A stretch of DNA of 38,173 bases. It comes from Alphaproteobacteria bacterium. Lineage in GTDB: Bacteria > Pseudomonadota > Alphaproteobacteria > M2410. A program made the translations under genes and the position numbers. This document shows, piece after piece, positions 2,730-38,173 of the stretch; within the stretch, counting starts at the first letter, position 1, and each line of letters begins with the position of its first letter. The notes beneath the pieces are model-generated. The model ran no database searches and was not told where the DNA came from. It saw only the letters and a list, made by a program, of their open reading frames with translations. The DNA is taken from NCBI GenBank assembly GCA_030614785.1, contig JAUWTJ010000036.1, positions 1-38,173 on the forward strand, given 5' to 3'.

Positions 2730-3344
2730 TCAAGCCACCAGTCGTTCGATGATACCTGGCTCTGACTCGCCATGTACTCGCTTGGCAAACTGAAGATAAT
2801 CCTGCGTTATAGGCTCGGTAATGATGGCGATATGATCCTCTCCATCAAGCTGCAGGACGTCGCCGAGTGGAATAAAGTTGAGCGACCTTTTGTTGCCGAG
2901 CCCCTTGCCCAGGATTGACAGTTGGCCGAAGTAAATGGCCTGGTCCGCTCCCATATTGAGAAGGCATTCCATATAGCCAATTGACACCAGCGCATGAACC
3001 TCCTTCCAGTCACTTCCGGTAAGCCTGGGGTCCACGACGTATCTGCTATTTTCATAGATCTTCGGTGAACGCGGAATCTTGTTGCCGAGAAATTCGGGCC
3101 AAAGCGTATCAAGCATGTAGGGGGTTGTAGTTGGTAGTAGCCGGCAACAGCCCCTGGCCTTTCCATACCGGTCTCGGACAAGAATGTAGTGCGCACGCGG
3201 ATTGTCGAACTGATCGAATTCCATATCCTCATGCTGTGAGACACCCTGCCAGTGGTATTGGTCAATAAAGACGTCTTTGCGCAATCGAGCCTGATCGTGG
3301 AATGAAGCTGCGCTTATTGTCTTGAATGTAAATATTTCAATCAT
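2730..3344 (-). CDS. luxI: LuxI-family acyl-homoserine-lactone synthase
   Basis: 204 residues from the ATG at 3344, chosen over an upstream in-frame ATG at 3386 because AGAAGGGG lies just before it and homology begins at MIEIFTF. All hallmark autoinducer-synthase positions are present: Arg22, Phe26, Trp32, Asp44, Asp47, Arg68 (GCCRLLPTT), Glu98 and Arg101 (YENSRYVVDP). The family joins S-adenosylmethionine with an acyl donor (acyl-ACP or acyl-CoA) to make an N-acyl-homoserine lactone in the cytoplasm. The gene follows luxR by 73 bases on the same strand and is followed without a gap by a 74-residue ORF and a hybrid kinase. Acyl chain specificity cannot be read from the sequence. Confidence 0.95.
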   Translation of the reverse strand: MIEIFTFKTISAASFHDQARLRKDVFIDQYHWQGVSQHEDMEFDQFDNPRAHYILVRDRYGKARGCCRLLPTTTPYMLDTLWPEFLGNKIPRSPKIYENSRYVVDPRLTGSDWKEVHALVSIGYMECLLNMGADQAIYFGQLSILGKGLGNKRSLNFIPLGDVLQLDGEDHIAIITEPITQDYLQFAKRVHGESEPGIIERLVA

Positions 3345-3417
3345 TGTCGTCCCCTTCTGAAAAAGAAGACAAATATCTACAGTCATAATTTCGCAGTTGG
3401 AAGTATGAGACTATATA

Positions 3418-4146
3418 CTATTGATCCCACGGTCGGAACCAGTCGGGGGCGAGAACCCCCAATCCGACAAGCTTGAGCACGGTTCTTACACGGCCATTCT
3501 CCCCAAGCTTTTGATAGGATTCGCTCAACCGTTTTGAGACGGAAATATCAGCGACCCCACAAATTTCTGCAGTTTCGCTGATGGTCTTGCCCTGCGCAAT
3601 CCACCCCAGGTATCGCAATTCGGCGGGTGTCAGTGCGCCGTCAGGCTCGCCGTCCGATAACTCCTGTCGCTGGGCGTGGTAGAGGTTCGAAATAGCATTG
3701 AGCGCGGCCATCTCAGGCTTTGTGGCCTTATCGGGGCGTCCGGCAAATGAAACGGCGTAGAACTGTCCTGGCCCGCGAAGGCTCAGTGACACCCCGTTTG
3801 TGAGCCCCGCCTCCTCGCTCTCGCGAAGACATTGCCGCCCCCTCTTGGCAGAAGTCTCCAGGCTCTCAATCCAGGCAAAAGGGCTACTCCTGTATGGCAG
3901 AAGGGAAAACACCGGATCGACCTGTGCGTAATCTTCATCTACGTAATGAGACCACCACCCGTTGCACACGGTTGTGGAAATAAAGGTCTCATCCATCTTG
4001 CCGCGCTGCAAGGCGTTACCGTAGGTAACAAACGGGAAACCAAAAAATCGATCAGCAACATTCAGGAACAATGCATCAAGTTCCGCTGTATCCAAAACCC
4101 CCTGCGATTTGTCCAGGTATCGGGTAAATCCCTCCGCCGCATGCAT
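3418..4146 (-). CDS. luxR: LuxR-family quorum-sensing transcriptional regulator
   Basis: 242 residues, the usual LuxR length. The N-terminal autoinducer-binding domain has the conserved ligand-pocket set (Trp64/65, Tyr68, Asp77-Pro78, Trp92, Gly near 114). The C-terminal LuxR/GerE helix-turn-helix runs from about LTPAELRYL (172) to 230, with the recognition helix around ISVSKRL. AAAGGA precedes the ATG at suitable spacing. It is expected to bind the lactone made by the adjacent LuxI and regulate luxI and other targets. The gene and its upstream region are AT-richer than most of the window, which may indicate acquired DNA. No convincing lux box could be found by eye. Confidence 0.93.
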   Translation of the reverse strand: MHAAEGFTRYLDKSQGVLDTAELDALFLNVADRFFGFPFVTYGNALQRGKMDETFISTTVCNGWWSHYVDEDYAQVDPVFSLLPYRSSPFAWIESLETSAKRGRQCLRESEEAGLTNGVSLSLRGPGQFYAVSFAGRPDKATKPEMAALNAISNLYHAQRQELSDGEPDGALTPAELRYLGWIAQGKTISETAEICGVADISVSKRLSESYQKLGENGRVRTVLKLVGLGVLAPDWFRPWDQ

Positions 4147-10151: not shown

Positions 10152-10844
10152 TCAGACAGCGCGTCTTGTCCGCCTTCTCGCCACACCAAAGCCGAGGAGG
10201 CCGAGGACCAGGAGAGTCAATGTGGCGGGTTCCGGAACGTCGGCTGAAGGAGGCTGTGCGAATGTACTGGCTCCACTGCCCACGATATCAGGCCCGTTAC
10301 CCCCGACGTTGGTGACGGTCAGGGGATTGAAATCGGTCAGCATGTCGAGGAGCGATCCGTAGGTCACGATGATAGCCGTGTCTGCCGATTCACCTTCCTC
10401 ATTGAAGACGTTCCAGTAGCCCGTGCCATCAGAACCTGAACCGACAATATCGGCGCCGTTACCGCCGACGTTGGTAACGGTCAGGGGATTGAAATCGGTC
10501 AGCATGTCGAGGAGCGATCCGTAGGTCACGATGATAGCCGTGTCTGCCGATTCACCTTCTTCGTTGAAGACATTCCAGTAGGTCGTGCCATCAGAACCTG
10601 AACCGACAATATCGGCGCCGTTACCGCCGACGTTGGTAACGGTCAGGGGATTGAAATCGGTCAACATGTCGAGGAGCGATCCGTAGGTCACGATGATAGC
10701 CGTGTCTGCCGATTCCCCTTCTTCGTTGAAGACATTGAAATATATTGGACCAGCAATCGCCGCCTGACCGGAAAAGGTCAAAAGGAGCATGAAGAGAATG
10801 CCTGCCAGTCCTTTGTTCATCGGCCGTGATTTCAGAATGCCCAT
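10152..10844 (-). CDS. PEP-CTERM sorted protein with three tandem 54-residue repeats
   Basis: 230 residues from the ATG at 10844 (preceded by GGGGGGAAG; the longer upstream reading lacks such a site). An N-terminal signal peptide (MNKGLAGILFMLLLTFSGQA, cleavage after about AIAG) leads into three nearly identical copies of a unit that begins NVFNEEGESADTAIIVTYG and ends VGGNGADIVGSGSDG. The C-terminus is a classic PEP-CTERM anchor: VPEPATLTLLVLGLLGFGVA followed by RRRTRR. In the family, an exosortase recognises PEP, cleaves and attaches the protein at the cell surface, often with exopolysaccharide. The repeat itself is not one I recognise. No exosortase gene lies in this window. Confidence 0.85.
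   Translation of the reverse strand: MGILKSRPMNKGLAGILFMLLLTFSGQAAIAGPIYFNVFNEEGESADTAIIVTYGSLLDMLTDFNPLTVTNVGGNGADIVGSGSDGTTYWNVFNEEGESADTAIIVTYGSLLDMLTDFNPLTVTNVGGNGADIVGSGSDGTGYWNVFNEEGESADTAIIVTYGSLLDMLTDFNPLTVTNVGGNGPDIVGSGASTFAQPPSADVPEPATLTLLVLGLLGFGVARRRTRRAV
10258..10743 (-). repeat. Three tandem 162-bp coding repeats
   Basis: The same DNA string recurs with exact 162-base spacing (for example aggggattga at 10321, 10483 and 10645). The copies differ at only a few bases, so the repeat is in frame, encodes 54 residues and arose by recent duplication or is being homogenised. Boundaries are approximate. Confidence 0.9.
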
Positions 10845-11225
10845 TTGATCTTCCCCCCGCCTGGTATCGCCTTGTCTCAATGCACTCGTTGGAGTAACCC
10901 GGAGGCATGGCAGCAACAACCATGCCAACAGACGATTGTCTGAATTCTGCGTTATTTTGGAGGCGAGGCAACCTGGTTGTAAAGAATCCCGACACATTGT
11001 GGGTCTCGCCCTCGTTCATGCCGCGCTGACGTGACCCCCGAAAACAGTGTGGCTTAGCGTCAGCCTCGGCTAATTTGAGACGCAATAAAATTGCTCCTTG
11101 CACGTCTGCTTTACCCTCTGAGGCGGACGCTGGTCGCAAGGTTTCTCCTCAGTCCACAGTATGCCCAGGACCCGGTCTGGATACCCTGGGCGAGCCCGGG
11201 CATGACAGCAAACCGGGAGCCGGCG
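10845..11225. other. Intergenic region between mutB and the PEP-CTERM gene
   Basis: About 380 bases. It should hold the promoter of the PEP-CTERM gene (minus strand) and the 3' end of mutB. A small hairpin CCTGGG-CGAG-CCCGGG lies at 11185-11200, just past the mutB stop, within a stretch (about 11170-11210) resembling common alphaproteobacterial intergenic repeats; it lacks a T-run, so terminator function is uncertain. No gene seen. Confidence 0.4.
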
Positions 11226-21901: not shown

Positions 21902-22441
21902 TCACTTCACATCCGGCCTCGGGTCGGGCACGAAATTATCCCGGTTCGGCATTTCCATTGCCGTCAGCGTTGCTGCATTCATCGGCCGATCTGCCGGGTA
22001 AATACCGCCTTCGGCGAAGATATAGGCAGCCAGTCCATAAATCTCGTCGTCGGACAGCGAGCCCGGCGCATTGAACGGCATGGCGCGGCGCACATAGTCA
22101 AAGAACGTCGGTGCGTAAGGCCAGTGCTGTGTCACAGTCTGGCCTGCCCCGATCAAGGGTCCGCCCTGGACGCCTTCGACGCCGCGCAACGTCTCGCCGT
22201 GACAGGCGACGCAGTGTTCGGCGTAGACGAGGGCACCTTGATCCCGGGTGCCTTCGCCGGGCGGCAGGCCTGCACCGTCATAACGCACGTCCGTGTCCCA
22301 GGCCGCGATCAACTCGTGAGGCGCCGGGCTGCCAAGTTCCGGAAACTGCTCGCCGGTTGCGGCTCCGCTTTCGTCACTGCACGCGGTCAGCGCCAGGGCG
22401 CCCAGAGCGGCCATCAGGATCCTTCGCTCACGCATGAACAT
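21902..22441 (-). CDS. Lipoprotein cytochrome c, electron acceptor of the SoxC-type dehydrogenase
   Basis: 179 residues. An N-terminal lipoprotein signal ends in the lipobox LTAC (Cys21); a single haem-binding CVACH at 77-81 follows, with a likely axial Met in AMPFNAPGSLSDDEIYGLAA. The start overlaps the end of soxC by 14 bases, so it is co-translated. In relatives, the Mo protein passes electrons from sulfite to such a cytochrome (SoxD or SorB). Here only one haem site is present, unlike the dihaem SoxD of Paracoccus, so SorB-like function is equally plausible. Confidence 0.85.
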   Translation of the reverse strand: MFMRERRILMAALGALALTACSDESGAATGEQFPELGSPAPHELIAAWDTDVRYDGAGLPPGEGTRDQGALVYAEHCVACHGETLRGVEGVQGGPLIGAGQTVTQHWPYAPTFFDYVRRAMPFNAPGSLSDDEIYGLAAYIFAEGGIYPADRPMNAATLTAMEMPNRDNFVPDPRPDVK

Positions 22442-23741
22442 TGGTCACATTCCCTTCTGCGTCGATGGCCCAGCTCTGGATGCCGTTATTGTGGTCCTTC
22501 GAATTGACACCGCGCACATCAACCAGCGCCGTGATGGTTGGCTGCACATAGCCGGTCTCATCGGTGGCGCGCGATTGCAGGATGGCGGGCTTGCCGTCCC
22601 AGCGCCAGCCGAAGGTAAAGCGCGTATGAGCCATGGACAGGACCGGCGCGACAAGATTTGCCCGCGCCCACGTTTTGCCGCCATCGGCGGAGACCTCGAC
22701 GCCGGTAATCTTGCCGCGGCCGGACCAGGCAAGGCCAGTGACCTCGTAAGTGCCGGGGATCGGTAGTTTCATGGTGCCAGACGGAAAGGTGATGACGGAC
22801 TTGGCTTCCATCTCCCAGGTGAAATAGCGCGTTGTCCCGTCGGCCAGCGTGTCGGCATAGGTGGTAACCTCCGGCCGGGTGAAGCTCGGCTTGTCGGTCA
22901 CGTCAAGGCGGCGCAGCCATTTGATCGACATATTTCCTTCAAAGCCCGGCAGAAGGAGACGCAAGGGATAACCCTGTTCCGGGCGGATCGCCTCGCCGTT
23001 CTGCGCGTAGGCCAGGATCGCATCGTCCATCGCCTTGTCGATCGGGATCGAGCGGGTGTGCATGCCGGCGTCCGAGCCCTCGCCCAACAGCCAGTTTGCG
23101 CCATCTTCAAGACCGACTTCGCGCAGCAGGGTTGAAAGCGCGACGCCGGTCCATTCGGAATTGGAGGTCAATCCATGCGTGCCCTGGACATGTGGCATGC
23201 TCGGCCTGGCATATTCCATGCCGCCATTGCCCGCGCACTCAAGAAACGCGGTCCGTGTGACGGAGGGAAAGCGGTAGAGGTCAGCCATGGTGAAAACCTT
23301 GGCGCGTTTCACCTTGCCGTGGATGAGTAGCTTGTGGCGCGCCGGATCAATCGTCGGCACCCCGCCTCGGTGGACCTCATAGTGAAGCCCCGAGGGCGTG
23401 ATCGTGCCATGAGTACCGGCCAGCGGCGTGAAGGAACCCGACACCCCTGGTTGCGGCAAGGGAAATTCCCAGCGCGATACCGTCTCGAATTGCGAGCGCA
23501 GGCCATAGCCGCCACCGGATGCGGGGCCGGGCTGGCTCGTTGGATCATCAAGGACTGCATGTTGCGAAGCGCCCTGGGTGGCCTCTGCTCCCGCCCTGCC
23601 GGCGAACAATCCGGTCCCGGCCAGAGCCGCGCCGCCGAGCAAGAGCGCCCGTCTGCCTGGATCGGGAAACATGCCCTCCTTGCAGTCGCAGTCTTCCGCC
23701 GTGCCAATGACGTCAAGGACTTCGGGCTTTTCGTCTTTCAT
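22428..23741 (-). CDS. soxC: Molybdopterin sulfite dehydrogenase, SoxC type
   Basis: 437 residues. A twin-arginine signal (GRRALLLGGAALAGTGLFAG, about 29-48) targets the folded protein to the periplasm. The sulfite-oxidase fold carries the Mo-ligating Cys169 in FLECAGNGG, and the C-terminal Mo-co dimerisation domain contains GKITGVEVSADGGKTW. It oxidises sulfite (or the sulfane sulfur of a SoxYZ conjugate) and passes electrons to the overlapping cytochrome c gene. AGGAG lies before the ATG. No soxYZ, soxAX or soxB is in the window, so a stand-alone sulfite-detoxifying role is more likely than a full Sox pathway. Confidence 0.92.
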   Translation of the reverse strand: MKDEKPEVLDVIGTAEDCDCKEGMFPDPGRRALLLGGAALAGTGLFAGRAGAEATQGASQHAVLDDPTSQPGPASGGGYGLRSQFETVSRWEFPLPQPGVSGSFTPLAGTHGTITPSGLHYEVHRGGVPTIDPARHKLLIHGKVKRAKVFTMADLYRFPSVTRTAFLECAGNGGMEYARPSMPHVQGTHGLTSNSEWTGVALSTLLREVGLEDGANWLLGEGSDAGMHTRSIPIDKAMDDAILAYAQNGEAIRPEQGYPLRLLLPGFEGNMSIKWLRRLDVTDKPSFTRPEVTTYADTLADGTTRYFTWEMEAKSVITFPSGTMKLPIPGTYEVTGLAWSGRGKITGVEVSADGGKTWARANLVAPVLSMAHTRFTFGWRWDGKPAILQSRATDETGYVQPTITALVDVRGVNSKDHNNGIQSWAIDAEGNVTNVHA

Positions 23742-32727: not shown

Positions 32728-33831
32728 ATGAAGGCCAAAACCTGCGAAAAAGGGAAGGGCACCGGGCGTCTCATCTCTGTTGGTTTGGTGTTGCTTGCGC
32801 CGCTGGTCGCGCTCACCGGTCTGTCCGGGCCAGCCCTTGCCGAAGACGTGCAGCTTCAGGACCCCGCCAAAGTCGTAGCCGAGATGACCATGACCGTCCA
32901 CGGCGGCAACGAAATCTCCGCACCGGTCTATGTCAATGGCAAGGGGCCGTTTGAATTTGTTGTGGATACCGGCGCCACATCCAGCGGGATCTGGAATTCC
33001 GTGGTGCAGCAAAACGCCCTCGAGAACAACCATGTCGAAACCATCACGGTCTCTGCGGCGGACGGTCTCGTCCGCTTGAAAATTCTTGAATTTGGCTCTG
33101 TCCGCGCTGCCGTCTTTGCCCTCGACCCGGCTCATTTGATGGAGTATCCCGATTACTATTCCTATTATCGCCGCCCCCTCTCGGGTATTCTTGGGGCAGA
33201 CTATCTGACAAATCACGTTGTGGTCTTTGATTTTCCCCGCGACATGATGGTGCTCTATCCGAAGATGACGAACCTGACGCGCAGCATGCCAGGATATTTC
33301 GATTCCATTCCCTTGCGGTTTGAAGGTGAGCAGAAAGCCCTGTTTGTCAAAGCCGGTATCAACGGCAAGAGGCTCAACGCACTGGTTGATACCGGCGCCA
33401 GTATGACCACAATCCTGACGTCGGAGCACAGGAAACTGGGGGTCAGCCTCGAAGGCGCACAGCAAGTCACCATGACCGGCGTCAACGGCAATCCGATTCG
33501 CGGCTATATCGTGCGCCTCCCGGCGCTGAAAGCCGGCTCAAAGATCTGGCGGGATGTCGAGGTTGTCTTCGCACAGTTCACCGTCGGGCGCGCCGATCGG
33601 TTTTCCATGCTGCTCGGCATGGATCTGATGGGCCGCACGCCGTTTGCCGTTGACTACGGCCGCAAGCGTCTGCTGTTGGCCAAACCGGAAAAGGTCAACA
33701 TGGTGTCGCGCCGGGATCCGCGCTCTCAAGCACTCGTCGAAGCGCCGGAAGAATTGCAATGTTCGTTTCCTGCAGCAGCACGCGAAGGTCTGCCTTGCGT
33801 CGCCGCGACACGGCCTCCAGAACGCCGGTAA
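32728..33831 (+). CDS. Exported protein with two retropepsin-like aspartic protease domains
   Basis: 367 residues from the ATG at 32728 (AGGGG upstream). A signal peptide (LISVGLVLLAPLVALTGLSG) ends at ALA. Two tandem retropepsin-like modules follow: VVDTGATSS with Asp80 and its ILGADYL, then ALVDTGASMT with Asp221 and LLGMDLMG. Each DTGA/ILG pair is the family core, and two in one chain could form an intramolecular active site. The last 45 or so residues (SRRDPRSQALVEAPEELQ onward) are basic and low in order, and lie antisense to the GH20 gene; they look like read-through past an original end. Substrate unknown. Confidence 0.8.
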   Translation: MKAKTCEKGKGTGRLISVGLVLLAPLVALTGLSGPALAEDVQLQDPAKVVAEMTMTVHGGNEISAPVYVNGKGPFEFVVDTGATSSGIWNSVVQQNALENNHVETITVSAADGLVRLKILEFGSVRAAVFALDPAHLMEYPDYYSYYRRPLSGILGADYLTNHVVVFDFPRDMMVLYPKMTNLTRSMPGYFDSIPLRFEGEQKALFVKAGINGKRLNALVDTGASMTTILTSEHRKLGVSLEGAQQVTMTGVNGNPIRGYIVRLPALKAGSKIWRDVEVVFAQFTVGRADRFSMLLGMDLMGRTPFAVDYGRKRLLLAKPEKVNMVSRRDPRSQALVEAPEELQCSFPAAAREGLPCVAATRPPERR

Positions 33832-35659
33832 GATCGTTTGTGCGCGGCGGCATCAGCGCATTGAGCGGCAGGTCATGGGTGGCAGGACGGCCTTCAAGCA
33901 CCTCAAGGCAGGACTTTGCGATTTCGCTTAGCGCATCCGCCAGTGGCTGATTTTCCTGTAGGCTTGGGAGCCGGGCGGTTTCTGAGCGAAAGGCGTCCCT
34001 GAGCCCGACAAGACGTTTCAATTCAACAATAAGAGGGGTCCTGTCGCCCGCCAGCGCCGCATCAACCAGTGCTTCAAACCTGTGCATGGCGTCTGTCTCG
34101 GGCAGCAATGTTTCAATCAACCGCGAAAATGGCGCGGTGACATCGTGCGGCGCTTCTGCCCGGTTCATCACAAAGTAATAGACCAGCGGCGCGGTATAGT
34201 CCCGCAGGAGTGCAACAGAAGGCGGAATGTTGCCGCCGCAAAGGCGCTCCGCCAGCCGCTTCGGCGCGTCAAGGTCAGCGCAGCCAAGCCTCTCCATCCG
34301 GTCCTGCGCTGCCATGATCCGCAGCCACGGCGACGGCACATCGGAAGTGCCCTGCGGCGACCAGAAGCGCGCGGCGAGAGCAAGGGCGCCAGGCCAGATA
34401 ATGGCTTCCACATTGTCCGGGTTCATCACCTCGGTCCAGACGCAGGCTTCCGCGCCAATCACATTGCGCCGGGGATCCTCCGGCTCCGGATCAATGGCGT
34501 AGTAGTCCTCGGCTCTCAGAAAATGATCAAGATAATAGCTTGTCGAAACAATGAGCGGGTAGCCATCGAAAATCTTGTTCGAGGCCGGCGTCATCCAGGG
34601 CTGAATAACGGTGTCTTTTGGCGGCGCGCCTTCGGCAACTTCCTCCCAGCCAATGGCCTTCTTGCCGTGTTTCTTCAATTCCTTCAAAACCCGGGCGGTG
34701 AAATGCGCCTGCAGCGCCCTGTTGTCTGCCAGGTCCCTGGCTTTCATGAAAGCCTGCACCCCCTCGTCCGCATCCCAGGCCTTGCCGGTCACCTCGTCGC
34801 CGCCGAAATGCCAGTACGGGTCGGGGAAGAGCGCGGCCATCTCGCCGATAAAGTCCTCAAGGAAGCGGTCCATGTGTGCCGACGCCGGGTTCATTTCATC
34901 GTCAAAGACCCCGGAGGTCTTGCGCAGTTCTGTTCGCGGTTTTCCGGTCGCAAGCTCCTGGTAGGCGAGGGTGAAACATGTCGAATGGCCCGGCATGTTG
35001 AATTCAGGGACAAGGCGGACACCGCGCTCGGCGGCAAACGTGATCAAGTTCGCGATCTCGTCCTGAGTGTAGTATTCGCCGTTTGAAGCAATCGTGTGCA
35101 GGCGTGGAAAGTTTTTGCTTTCAACACGAAAGCCCTGGTTGTTGGAGAGCCCGAGGTGCAGCACATTCAGCTTGGCCCGCCCCATGCCATCCACCATGCG
35201 TTTGACCAACTCAAGCGGCATGAAGTGCCGCGCCACATCAAGCATCAGCCCGCGCCACTTGAAGCGAGGTTCATCACTTATGGTGCAACAGGGAAAGACA
35301 ACCCCGTCTCCATCCGGGCGCGCCAGCTGCAGGAGCGTCTGGAGACCATAGTAGATACCAGTTCGTCGATGTGCAGAAATCCGAATGCCCTGCGCGCTGA
35401 TTTCAAGTTCGTAACTTTCATTGTCGCCGAAGGTCGGCAGGTCCTTTCCTGTGTCTAAACAATCAATCTCAATATGTGCAGGACCAGACGGAAGAGGCTG
35501 CTTGACAAGGACCGTTGCAGTCAGCCTTTCCAAGTTTGATATCAAGTTTGTTGACAGGCTTCCGAAGCCCGGTGCCGAGACCTCGACAACCCCCTGGAGC
35601 CGGAACTCGCCAGGAGAAATTGTCAGGCTTTTCGGTGTCGGCAACAGCGTCGGTTCCAT
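33695..35659 (-). CDS. GH20 beta-N-acetylhexosaminidase-like protein with altered conserved residues
   Basis: 654 residues from ATG 35659. An N-terminal GH20b-type domain precedes the barrel (LMLDVARHFMP at 138-148). The catalytic acid/base pair is intact: Asp288-Glu289 in HFGGDEV. However, the strand usually written SDDQGWR is SNNQGFR (Asn173, Asn174), the preceding His is Gly170, and the usual PEIDMPGH is PEFNMPGH (Asn221). Family chemistry is removal of terminal GlcNAc/GalNAc with neighbouring-group assistance. No signal peptide, so cytoplasmic. Starts 14 bases after ppa. Its 3' end overlaps the convergent retropepsin gene by 137 bases. Confidence 0.85.
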   Translation of the reverse strand: MEPTLLPTPKSLTISPGEFRLQGVVEVSAPGFGSLSTNLISNLERLTATVLVKQPLPSGPAHIEIDCLDTGKDLPTFGDNESYELEISAQGIRISAHRRTGIYYGLQTLLQLARPDGDGVVFPCCTISDEPRFKWRGLMLDVARHFMPLELVKRMVDGMGRAKLNVLHLGLSNNQGFRVESKNFPRLHTIASNGEYYTQDEIANLITFAAERGVRLVPEFNMPGHSTCFTLAYQELATGKPRTELRKTSGVFDDEMNPASAHMDRFLEDFIGEMAALFPDPYWHFGGDEVTGKAWDADEGVQAFMKARDLADNRALQAHFTARVLKELKKHGKKAIGWEEVAEGAPPKDTVIQPWMTPASNKIFDGYPLIVSTSYYLDHFLRAEDYYAIDPEPEDPRRNVIGAEACVWTEVMNPDNVEAIIWPGALALAARFWSPQGTSDVPSPWLRIMAAQDRMERLGCADLDAPKRLAERLCGGNIPPSVALLRDYTAPLVYYFVMNRAEAPHDVTAPFSRLIETLLPETDAMHRFEALVDAALAGDRTPLIVELKRLVGLRDAFRSETARLPSLQENQPLADALSEIAKSCLEVLEGRPATHDLPLNALMPPRTNDLTGVLEAVSRRRKADLRVLLQETNIAILPALRRVLESADPGATPC

Positions 35660-35673
35660 CACACCCCCCACGA

Positions 35674-36207
35674 TCAAGCCTGGTCTTTCGCCTGGCTGAT
35701 CGAGGCCAGGATCATCGCGCGGGTCGCGTCGGCGTCCTCCCAGCCCGTCAGCTTGACCCACTTGTTGGGCTCAAGATCCTTATAGTGGGCAAAAAAGTGG
35801 GAGATCTGATCGAGCAGGATCTGCCGCAGATCCTTGTAGGACTGAATGTTGGAGTAATAGGGGTGAAGCGCGTCGGCTGGCACCGCGATAACCTTTTCGT
35901 CCATGCCCGCCTCATCTTCCATCACCAGCATCCCCACAGGGCGCGAGCGGATGATCGCACCCGGAATGACCGGCGTTGGCCCCGCGACCAGAACATCGAC
36001 CGGGTCACCGTCGGCGGCCAGCGTATGGGGAATGAAGCCGTAGTTGCACGGATAGAACATCGCGGTATGCAAAAAGCGATCAACGAAGATCGCGCCGCTT
36101 TCCTTGTCGAGTTCATATTTCACCGGCGCGCCGCCGAGCGGCACTTCGATCATCACGTTCACTTCATCCGGCGGATTGGTTCCAACGGAAATTTTCGACA
36201 TGTCCAT
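35674..36207 (-). CDS. ppa: Inorganic pyrophosphatase (family I, soluble)
   Basis: 177 residues from the ATG at 36207, matching the family size in alphaproteobacteria; the longer reading to 36303 would run back into GH1. Active-site motifs are visible: [35 protein letters not shown] and DGDPVDVLV (Mg2+-binding Asp residues), then KDL and [12 protein letters not shown]. It hydrolyses pyrophosphate to phosphate in the cytoplasm. AAAGAG precedes the start. It sits 13 bases after GH1 and 14 before GH20 on the same strand, an unusual place for a housekeeping gene. Confidence 0.96.
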
Positions 36208-36220
36208 GGTGCGGCTCTTT

Positions 36221-37543
36221 CTATTTGAGACGCCGCGATTGAACCACATCGCGGTACCAGTTGTAAGAGGCCTTGGGCGTGCGGGCTTGCGTCCCATAGT
36301 CAATGCGCACCAGCCCGAAGCGTGGTGCGTAGCCCCGGGTCCACTCGAAGCTGTCGGTCAGTGACCACGCGAAGTAACCTTTCAACCTGGCGCCCTTGTC
36401 CATGGCATCAAGACAGGCATTGAGGTTTTCAGCCAGATAATTGATCCGGTCGGGGTCTTCGACAGAGCCATTGAGTTCAGGCTTGTCGGCAAAGGCGCCG
36501 CCGTTTGCGGTGATGTAAAGATCAAGCCCGGGACAGGTCTGGCTCATGTGCGCCGCCAGTTTGCCGATCCCTTCGGGCCAGATTTCGAGCCCCGTCTCGG
36601 TCAACGGCGCGCCGTCCGGTGGCCCGGCCTCGCGGTAGCCCCGGGGGGTGTCCGCGGCCCGGATGCGCTTGCGGGTATAGTGATTGAGCCCGAGAAAATC
36701 CAGAGCGCACAACGTTTTGCCCAGGTCGCCGTCGTGGATGAACGGCAGCAGGCGCTCATAGATCGCTTCGGGGTAGGTGCCGTGCAGCAGCGGATCGAGA
36801 ACCGCCCGCTCATGCCAGTCTCTCGCCTTTTCGCAGGCCGCAAAGTCCTCTTCCTCTTGCCGCGCCGGCTCTATCCATGGCGCCTCGATGGCGGTGCCGA
36901 TGCGCAGTTCGTGCTTCAGGCTGCGCAGCGCTTCGGCCCCCAGACCCGCAGCAAGGTTGAGATGATGCATCGCTGCATGATGCATATCGGCGGGCGAAAG
37001 GTCCCGGTGCCGCGTACCAAGCACATTGGTCAGAGCGGCGCTGGTCGACGGTTCGTTCATAAGGATGTGGTTTTTCACCCGGTCCGCAATCCGCGCGCCC
37101 ATCTCGCCGACATAGTCAGCATACCAATAAGCCACGTCGCGCGACGCCCAGCCGCCCTTGATATGAAGCTTCTGCGGTAAATCGAAATGATGGTAGCAAA
37201 CCCACGGCGTAATGCCGCGCTCAAGTGCCGTGTCGATCAGCCGATCATAAAAATCAACGCCTTCGCGGTTGATCGCGCCCGAGCCACCGGGAAAAATTCG
37301 CGGCCACGAAATCGAAAACCGCCACGCATCAAGCCCGAGTTCGGCCATCAGGTCGATGTCTTCGCCATACCGGTGATAATGATCGCACGCCACATCGCCG
37401 TGATCATCGCCCGCAATATTGCCCGGCAAGTGGCAAAACCGGTCCCAGACGCTCTCCCCGCGCCCGCCCGCGCGCACCGCCCCCTCGGTCTGATAGGCCG
37501 AGGTCGAGACGCCGAAAATGAAGTCAGAAGGAAAGTCGGGCAT
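36221..37543 (-). CDS. GH1 beta-glucosidase homologue lacking the nucleophile glutamate
   Basis: 440 residues covering a full GH1 barrel: Gln18/Glu20 (QTEG), [12 protein letters not shown] (74-85), acid/base Glu164 in LMNEPS, NHYTRKR, and the C-terminal [15 protein letters not shown] aglycone and sugar-binding Glu/Trp. The nucleophile motif usually ITENG reads YITANGG: Ala346, codon GCA at 36508-36506, one base from GAA. With the nucleophile gone, normal retaining hydrolysis is not expected, while sugar binding residues remain. It may be a binding/regulatory pseudoenzyme, use a different mechanism, or reflect a base error. GGAG precedes ATG at good spacing. Confidence 0.9.
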
Positions 37544-37633: not shown

Positions 37634-38173
37634 ATGCCTCAAAATGACAAAATGAATTTGACAGAAATCTACGACAAGAAGTTTGAAGAGTGGTGGAAAG
37701 AAGGTTGGGATTGGGACAATCTGTCACCTGAACAAAAGGAATATTGGATTGCCGAAAAGGACCATCTTATTGCATTTGCTGGAAAACAGTGGACAAGATT
37801 CCATCTGCCACTTCGCGATATAGACGGTAATGCTAGTCCAAAGAACCGGGGGTTCAAAGACCCGGAACTGCGATGGTCGGATTCAAAACATCAAAAGCTA
37901 TTGGATGATATTTCTGCTCGCCTAACGGAATCAAGAAGGAGTCTGCGTGACACTGCGAGACTTTCAGGGATCGTTGTTTCCGAGTCTCTGGAGATTAGTG
38001 AGGCGGTGATTGAGAGATCGGTCCTTTTGGAATCAGCCCGTTTTGAGAAGGCGATAAACTTTTACGGCGTTTCATTTCAGGAGTCTGTCAATCTTCGAGA
38101 TTCCTCGTTTTACGAGCTTGCCGACATGAGAGGGTGTGCTTTTCTTGGTTCTTTGACACTAAGTCGATCATTG
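37634..38173 (+). CDS. Pentapeptide-repeat-like protein (start only; runs off the window)
   Basis: Open frame of 180 codons with no stop before the window ends. The N-terminal 60 residues are Trp/Glu/Lys-rich (KKFEEWWKEGWDWDN), followed by a helical section around residue 90, then from about 130 a run of repeating hydrophobic/Phe-centred units (ESARFEKAINFYGVSFQESV, then NLRDSSFYELADMRGC), the pattern of pentapeptide or related right-handed beta-helix repeats. Base composition is AT-richer than the rest of the window, suggesting a different origin. It is divergent from GH1 by 90 bases; ribosome site is weak. Confidence 0.55.
   Translation, partial: MPQNDKMNLTEIYDKKFEEWWKEGWDWDNLSPEQKEYWIAEKDHLIAFAGKQWTRFHLPLRDIDGNASPKNRGFKDPELRWSDSKHQKLLDDISARLTESRRSLRDTARLSGIVVSESLEISEAVIERSVLLESARFEKAINFYGVSFQESVNLRDSSFYELADMRGCAFLGSLTLSRSL

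Follow-up and report, generated by a model that had tools for sequence, protein, structure and literature searches.

A GH1-fold bacterial protein with a probable natural loss of its catalytic nucleophile

The gene described here encodes a GH1-fold protein in which the glutamate that serves as catalytic nucleophile is replaced by alanine (Ala346). We propose that this is a real GH1 protein which has lost its nucleophile naturally and no longer performs retaining hydrolysis, being now either a cytoplasmic pseudo-glycosidase that binds a sugar or a partner, or a former beta-glucosidase under relaxed selection, and we give this reading a probability of roughly two in three. The protein is probably no longer an ordinary beta-glucosidase, and the loss of the nucleophile is probably both real and natural. 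The window, by which we mean the whole stretch of DNA analysed, is one whole contig of 38173 bases from a draft genome (3.86 Mb, 148 contigs, 99.1% complete) that is probably alphaproteobacterial, judging by its genes and their relatives, and the features on which the argument turns are collected in Table 1.

Table 1. Positions in the window of the GH1 gene, of its altered and kept pocket residues, and of the genes beside it.
Feature	Position	Strand	Basis
GH1-fold protein, Glu replaced by Ala346 at the nucleophile	36221..37543	-	ORF, PF00232, TIGR03356, SD-like start
Codon 346, GCA (Ala), ITENG nucleophile position	36506..36508	-	reading frame, alignment
Glu164, acid/base, NEP motif (ILMNEP), kept	37052..37054	-	alignment; coordinates computed from residue number
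Trp74 for conserved Tyr, adjoining Arg75	37322..37324	-	alignment
Phe120 for invariant Trp of HW motif, His119 kept	37184..37186	-	alignment
Glu220 for Asn, catalytic-face end of barrel strand beta5	36884..36886	-	alignment, model
Leu319 for MGW tryptophan	36587..36589	-	alignment
Ser398 for Asn in DNFEW; Glu400 and Trp401 kept	36350..36352	-	alignment
Inorganic pyrophosphatase	35674..36207	-	PF00719; start about 14 bp past GH1 stop
GH20 beta-N-acetylhexosaminidase, HFGGDE motif intact	33695..35659	-	start about 15 bp past pyrophosphatase stop

Membership of the GH1 family is clear over the full length of the protein. The reading frame of 440 aa is intact with no internal stops, it starts at an ATG with an SD-like GGAG upstream, and its codon-position GC profile is similar to that of the neighbouring genes; no signal peptide was evident by eye in the translated protein. 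PF00232 (GH1) matches end to end (425 bits, positions 4-451 of 453, Pfam), and TIGR03356, ‘GH1 family beta-glucosidase’, scores 503.2 bits, above the curated cut-off of 478.5 (NCBIfam). This means that an annotation model calls the protein a GH1 beta-glucosidase although its catalytic nucleophile is missing. At the two positions that mark enzymes of the TIGR03356 type, the acid/base Glu of the NEP motif on strand beta4 is present (Glu164), while the nucleophile Glu of the [I/V]TENG motif on strand beta7 is Ala346. A structure model built from 42 aligned sequences is a confident (beta/alpha)8 barrel (mean pLDDT 92.4, pTM 0.92), with lower confidence only near residues 171-180, directly after the acid/base strand, and its top structural matches are ordinary GH1 beta-glucosidases with Z about 55. 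From this model the protein is predicted to fold normally. The GH1 fold is thereby combined with the apparent natural loss of at least one catalytic Glu, which is the combination that characterizes a GH1 pseudo-glycosidase.

The nucleophile codon is read in the context TAC ATC ACC GCA AAC GGC GGC (YITANGG), giving the motif ITANG instead of ITENG. The sequence-only reading that preceded this analysis had placed the replacement of Glu by Ala at this codon, and the placement was exact. The column is Glu in 136 of 136 full-length aligned relatives. When these 136 were joined by 80 more distant places to give a wider set of 216, Glu was found in 215, the one exception being L165, which has Arg and is considered below. 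The same reading had described Glu164, Gln18 and the FEW region as kept, and the alignment bears this out: F399-E400-W401 is retained, and all the -1 residues other than the nucleophile are present (Gln18, His119, Asn163, Glu164, Trp393, Glu400 and Trp401).

In the GH1 mechanism ordinary double displacement is impossible without the carboxylate of the nucleophile, and the loss seen here would make double-displacement (retaining) hydrolysis impossible for this protein. That normal retaining hydrolysis is lost, as had been supposed, is also suggested by analogy with a structural relative, the BglA of Halothermothrix orenii. Its -1 subsite comprises Gln20, His121, Asn165, the acid/base Glu166, the nucleophile Glu354, Trp401, Glu408 and Trp409, and its nucleophile mutant E354Q has undetectable activity on cellobiose or lactose (PMC4322223); the correspondence between the two proteins was assigned by motif. 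We therefore picture a protein that is presumably expressed and whose -1 site may still bind a beta-glycoside or a free sugar via Gln18, His119, Asn163, Trp393, Glu400 and Trp401, such that the bound sugar would be held and not cleaved. Its role would then be that of a cytoplasmic pseudo-glycosidase binding a sugar or a partner, or it may be a beta-glucosidase on which selection has relaxed in this lineage.

The nucleophile is not the only residue of the pocket to have changed. Seven further substitutions at near-invariant positions of the alignment (Y74W, L117Y, W120F, P180R, W319L, N398S and N220E) had been missed by the sequence-only reading; L117Y, P180R, W319L and N220E are rare changes. 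Invariant columns, 29 in all, were defined on the 136 other sequences, with a leave-one-out count for each sequence. Four of them are broken in the query (Y74W, W120F, E346A and N398S), compared with one in each of 8 other sequences and none in the remaining 128, and at near-invariant columns the query has the most violations of any sequence. Since the other 25 of the 29 invariant columns are retained, some constraint on the protein is still favoured. In the wider set, Phe stands for Trp120 in 25 of 216, these being distant GH1s with the nucleophile Glu, and where Glu346 is present, Phe sometimes replaces Tyr74, and Asn398 can give way to Cys, Leu or Val. The changes at Trp120, Tyr74 and Asn398 alone therefore do not imply that catalysis has been lost.

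These substitutions bear on whether Ala346 could be an error of sequencing or assembly in a divergent, active GH1 enzyme, a possibility that had been raised from the outset and that we consider improbable. GCA is one base from GAA, and the assembly, a draft in 148 contigs, is the single genome of its species, both of which would suit an error. Against it, the same gene holds independent pocket changes that cost two bases each from the consensus residue (Y74W, L117Y, W120F and N220E) or three (W319L), and every Glu346 sequence of the 136 departs from one invariant column at most, so that the changes fit a real loss better. The multi-base changes are not explicable as a slip of sequencing, and a one-base error as the whole explanation was rejected on their cost. 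The suspicion of error is thus weakened but keeps its footing in E346A itself, which like N398S is a single-base change. A remodelled pocket would be the expected setting for a real loss of the nucleophile, although multi-base changes elsewhere do not prove that E346A is real.

A second alternative is that the loss is recent, the gene being a beta-glucosidase gene that decays under relaxed selection, with E346A as one neutral hit in a protein that has no function. We regard this as unlikely, yet it is the more serious of the two. The end branch of the query is 1.39 against a median of 0.29 and among the three longest, the gene is without a match in three genomes of the same family (each only 80-87% complete), and the excess of violations at near-invariant columns is also what decay would produce. 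Speaking against decay are the intact frame of 440 codons with its normal codon-position GC, the SD-like start and tight gene row, and the retained invariant columns, which take in all the other -1 residues. Divergence along a long branch was rejected as the sole cause of the broken columns, since L136 and L126, whose branches are similar or longer, keep Tyr74, Trp120, Glu346 and Asn398. The order that we find most likely is a pseudo-glycosidase that may still hold sugar, then decay under relaxed selection, then a base error at codon 346.

The search for relatives covered 84,980 species genomes together with 385 from the class and 398 from the phylum, and across these the best identity to any relative was 46-47%, with no orthologue above 47% found in the species, class or phylum sets. 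A scan of viral contigs gave no relative of the protein, and a search of plasmid proteins gave only GH1s of less than 60% identity. A degenerate DNA pattern for ITANGGA had 10 other matches in the 385 class genomes, none of them in a GH1, the sole GH1 match being that of the window itself. Orthologues with Glu at this position had been named beforehand as evidence that would tell against the loss; homologues at up to 47% identity do all have Glu, but a true orthologue was not found. Two further points stand against the pseudo-glycosidase reading. Ala346 is found in the query alone and is common to no orthologue, and the gene is the only GH1 of its genome and hence not a spare duplicate, spare duplicates being the usual source of pseudoenzymes.

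The gene stands first in a tight row on one strand, in the order GH1-pyrophosphatase-GH20. GH1 and pyrophosphatase are probably on the same transcript, and the whole row looks like one transcription unit. On the other side of the GH1 gene, a divergent pentapeptide-repeat protein (37634-38173, + strand) runs off the contig end, with a GC content of 0.446 against 0.577 for the rest of the window.

The GH20 enzymes use substrate assistance, in which the 2-acetamido group acts as internal nucleophile, and the row raises the idea that the GH1 protein has changed its chemistry and turns over without the usual nucleophile, using the 2-acetamido group of a substrate as in GH20, a relocated Glu220, or a small anion or activated donor. 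The acid/base Glu164 and Asn163 are kept, Ala346 and Phe120 would both cut bulk near the -1 sugar, judging from GH1 structures, and in the model Glu220 would be a carboxylate gained at the catalytic-face end of beta5; the gene row shared with a GH20 N-acetylhexosaminidase also points this way. That Glu220 could reach C1 is a supposition, however, and Asp occupies that column in 5 normal Glu346 enzymes of the wider set. Family searches of the genome gave no NagA- or GH18-family match, so that an N-acetylglucosamine pathway is not supported. The relative G001 has its GH20 homologue (45%) beside neither a GH1 nor a pyrophosphatase, which lends no support to conservation of the row. Nothing found here speaks positively for a natural glycosynthase, an activated-donor transglycosylase or a sensor, the last two of which the sequence-only reading had suggested; for a glycosynthase-like or substrate-assisted enzyme the support is confined to the kept acid/base, the gained Glu220 and the GH20 neighbour. 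Changed chemistry in general is very unlikely, a shade below even an error at codon 346, and its specific form, a catalytic GH1 beside a GH20 working by N-acetylhexosaminide substrate assistance or through a relocated Glu220, is the least likely of all.

We return to the preferred reading, that of a natural pseudo-glycosidase or a relaxed former beta-glucosidase, and to how such a protein compares with known systems. It resembles the TIGR03356/GH1 beta-glucosidases (such as BglM-G1 5ns6, Td2F2 and H. orenii BglA) in its full-length match, its fold and its -1 ligands, and its identity to bacterial beta-glucosidases of the ordinary kind is about 45%, but it differs from them in lacking the nucleophile Glu and in its changes at Tyr74, Trp120, Trp319 and Asn398. 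Engineered GH1 glycosynthases, in which the nucleophile of an otherwise active enzyme is changed to Ala, Gly or similar and activated donors are needed, are altered at the same residue. There the change is designed, whereas in the query it is natural and accompanied by more changes in the pocket.

The closest natural parallel is the KL2 domain of beta-Klotho, in which Ala889 takes the place of a catalytic Glu and which is reported not to be a true hydrolase (PMC10628560). The likeness lies in the kind of change, both being GH1 folds in which Ala occurs naturally at the site of a catalytic Glu, and is no evidence of shared descent from a pseudoenzyme. Beta-Klotho is an animal membrane receptor with tandem domains, unlike the bacterial, single-domain protein described here with no evident signal peptide, and it was absent from the best 50 matches when structures were compared, though the two may resemble each other all the same. 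A bacterial case of natural nucleophile loss in GH1 was not found described in a limited search of the open-access literature.

Among the sequences compared, L165 (L231:5035-6402, on G018:C1), from another alphaproteobacterium, is likewise a natural bacterial GH1-like protein without the nucleophile Glu. Unlike the query it has lost both catalytic Glu residues, with Arg at the nucleophile and Asp at the acid/base; it is 28% identical to the query, its C-terminal third is much more degenerate, PF00232 matches only its first two thirds, and it adjoins an oxidoreductase-like ORF. If the loss in the query is real and fixed, the Klotho-type GH1 pseudoenzymes would have a counterpart in bacteria, and the protein would show, as a natural experiment, the fate of a GH1 pocket after hydrolysis has been abandoned. 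It could also serve as a naturally occurring scaffold in work on glycosynthases or sugar binding.

Several other genes of the window were recorded in passing, all on the minus strand. They include a quorum-sensing pair at 2730-4146, consisting of an autoinducer synthase (PF00765) and a LuxR-type autoinducer-binding regulator (PF03472), and a molybdopterin oxidoreductase and cytochrome c pair at 21902-23741 that is like sulfite or sulfane dehydrogenase (SoxCD-like). A PEP-CTERM protein at 10152-10997 carries three near-identical repeats of ~53 aa (YWNVFNEEGESADTAIIVTYGSLLDMLTDFNPLTVTNVGGNGADIVGSGSDGT).
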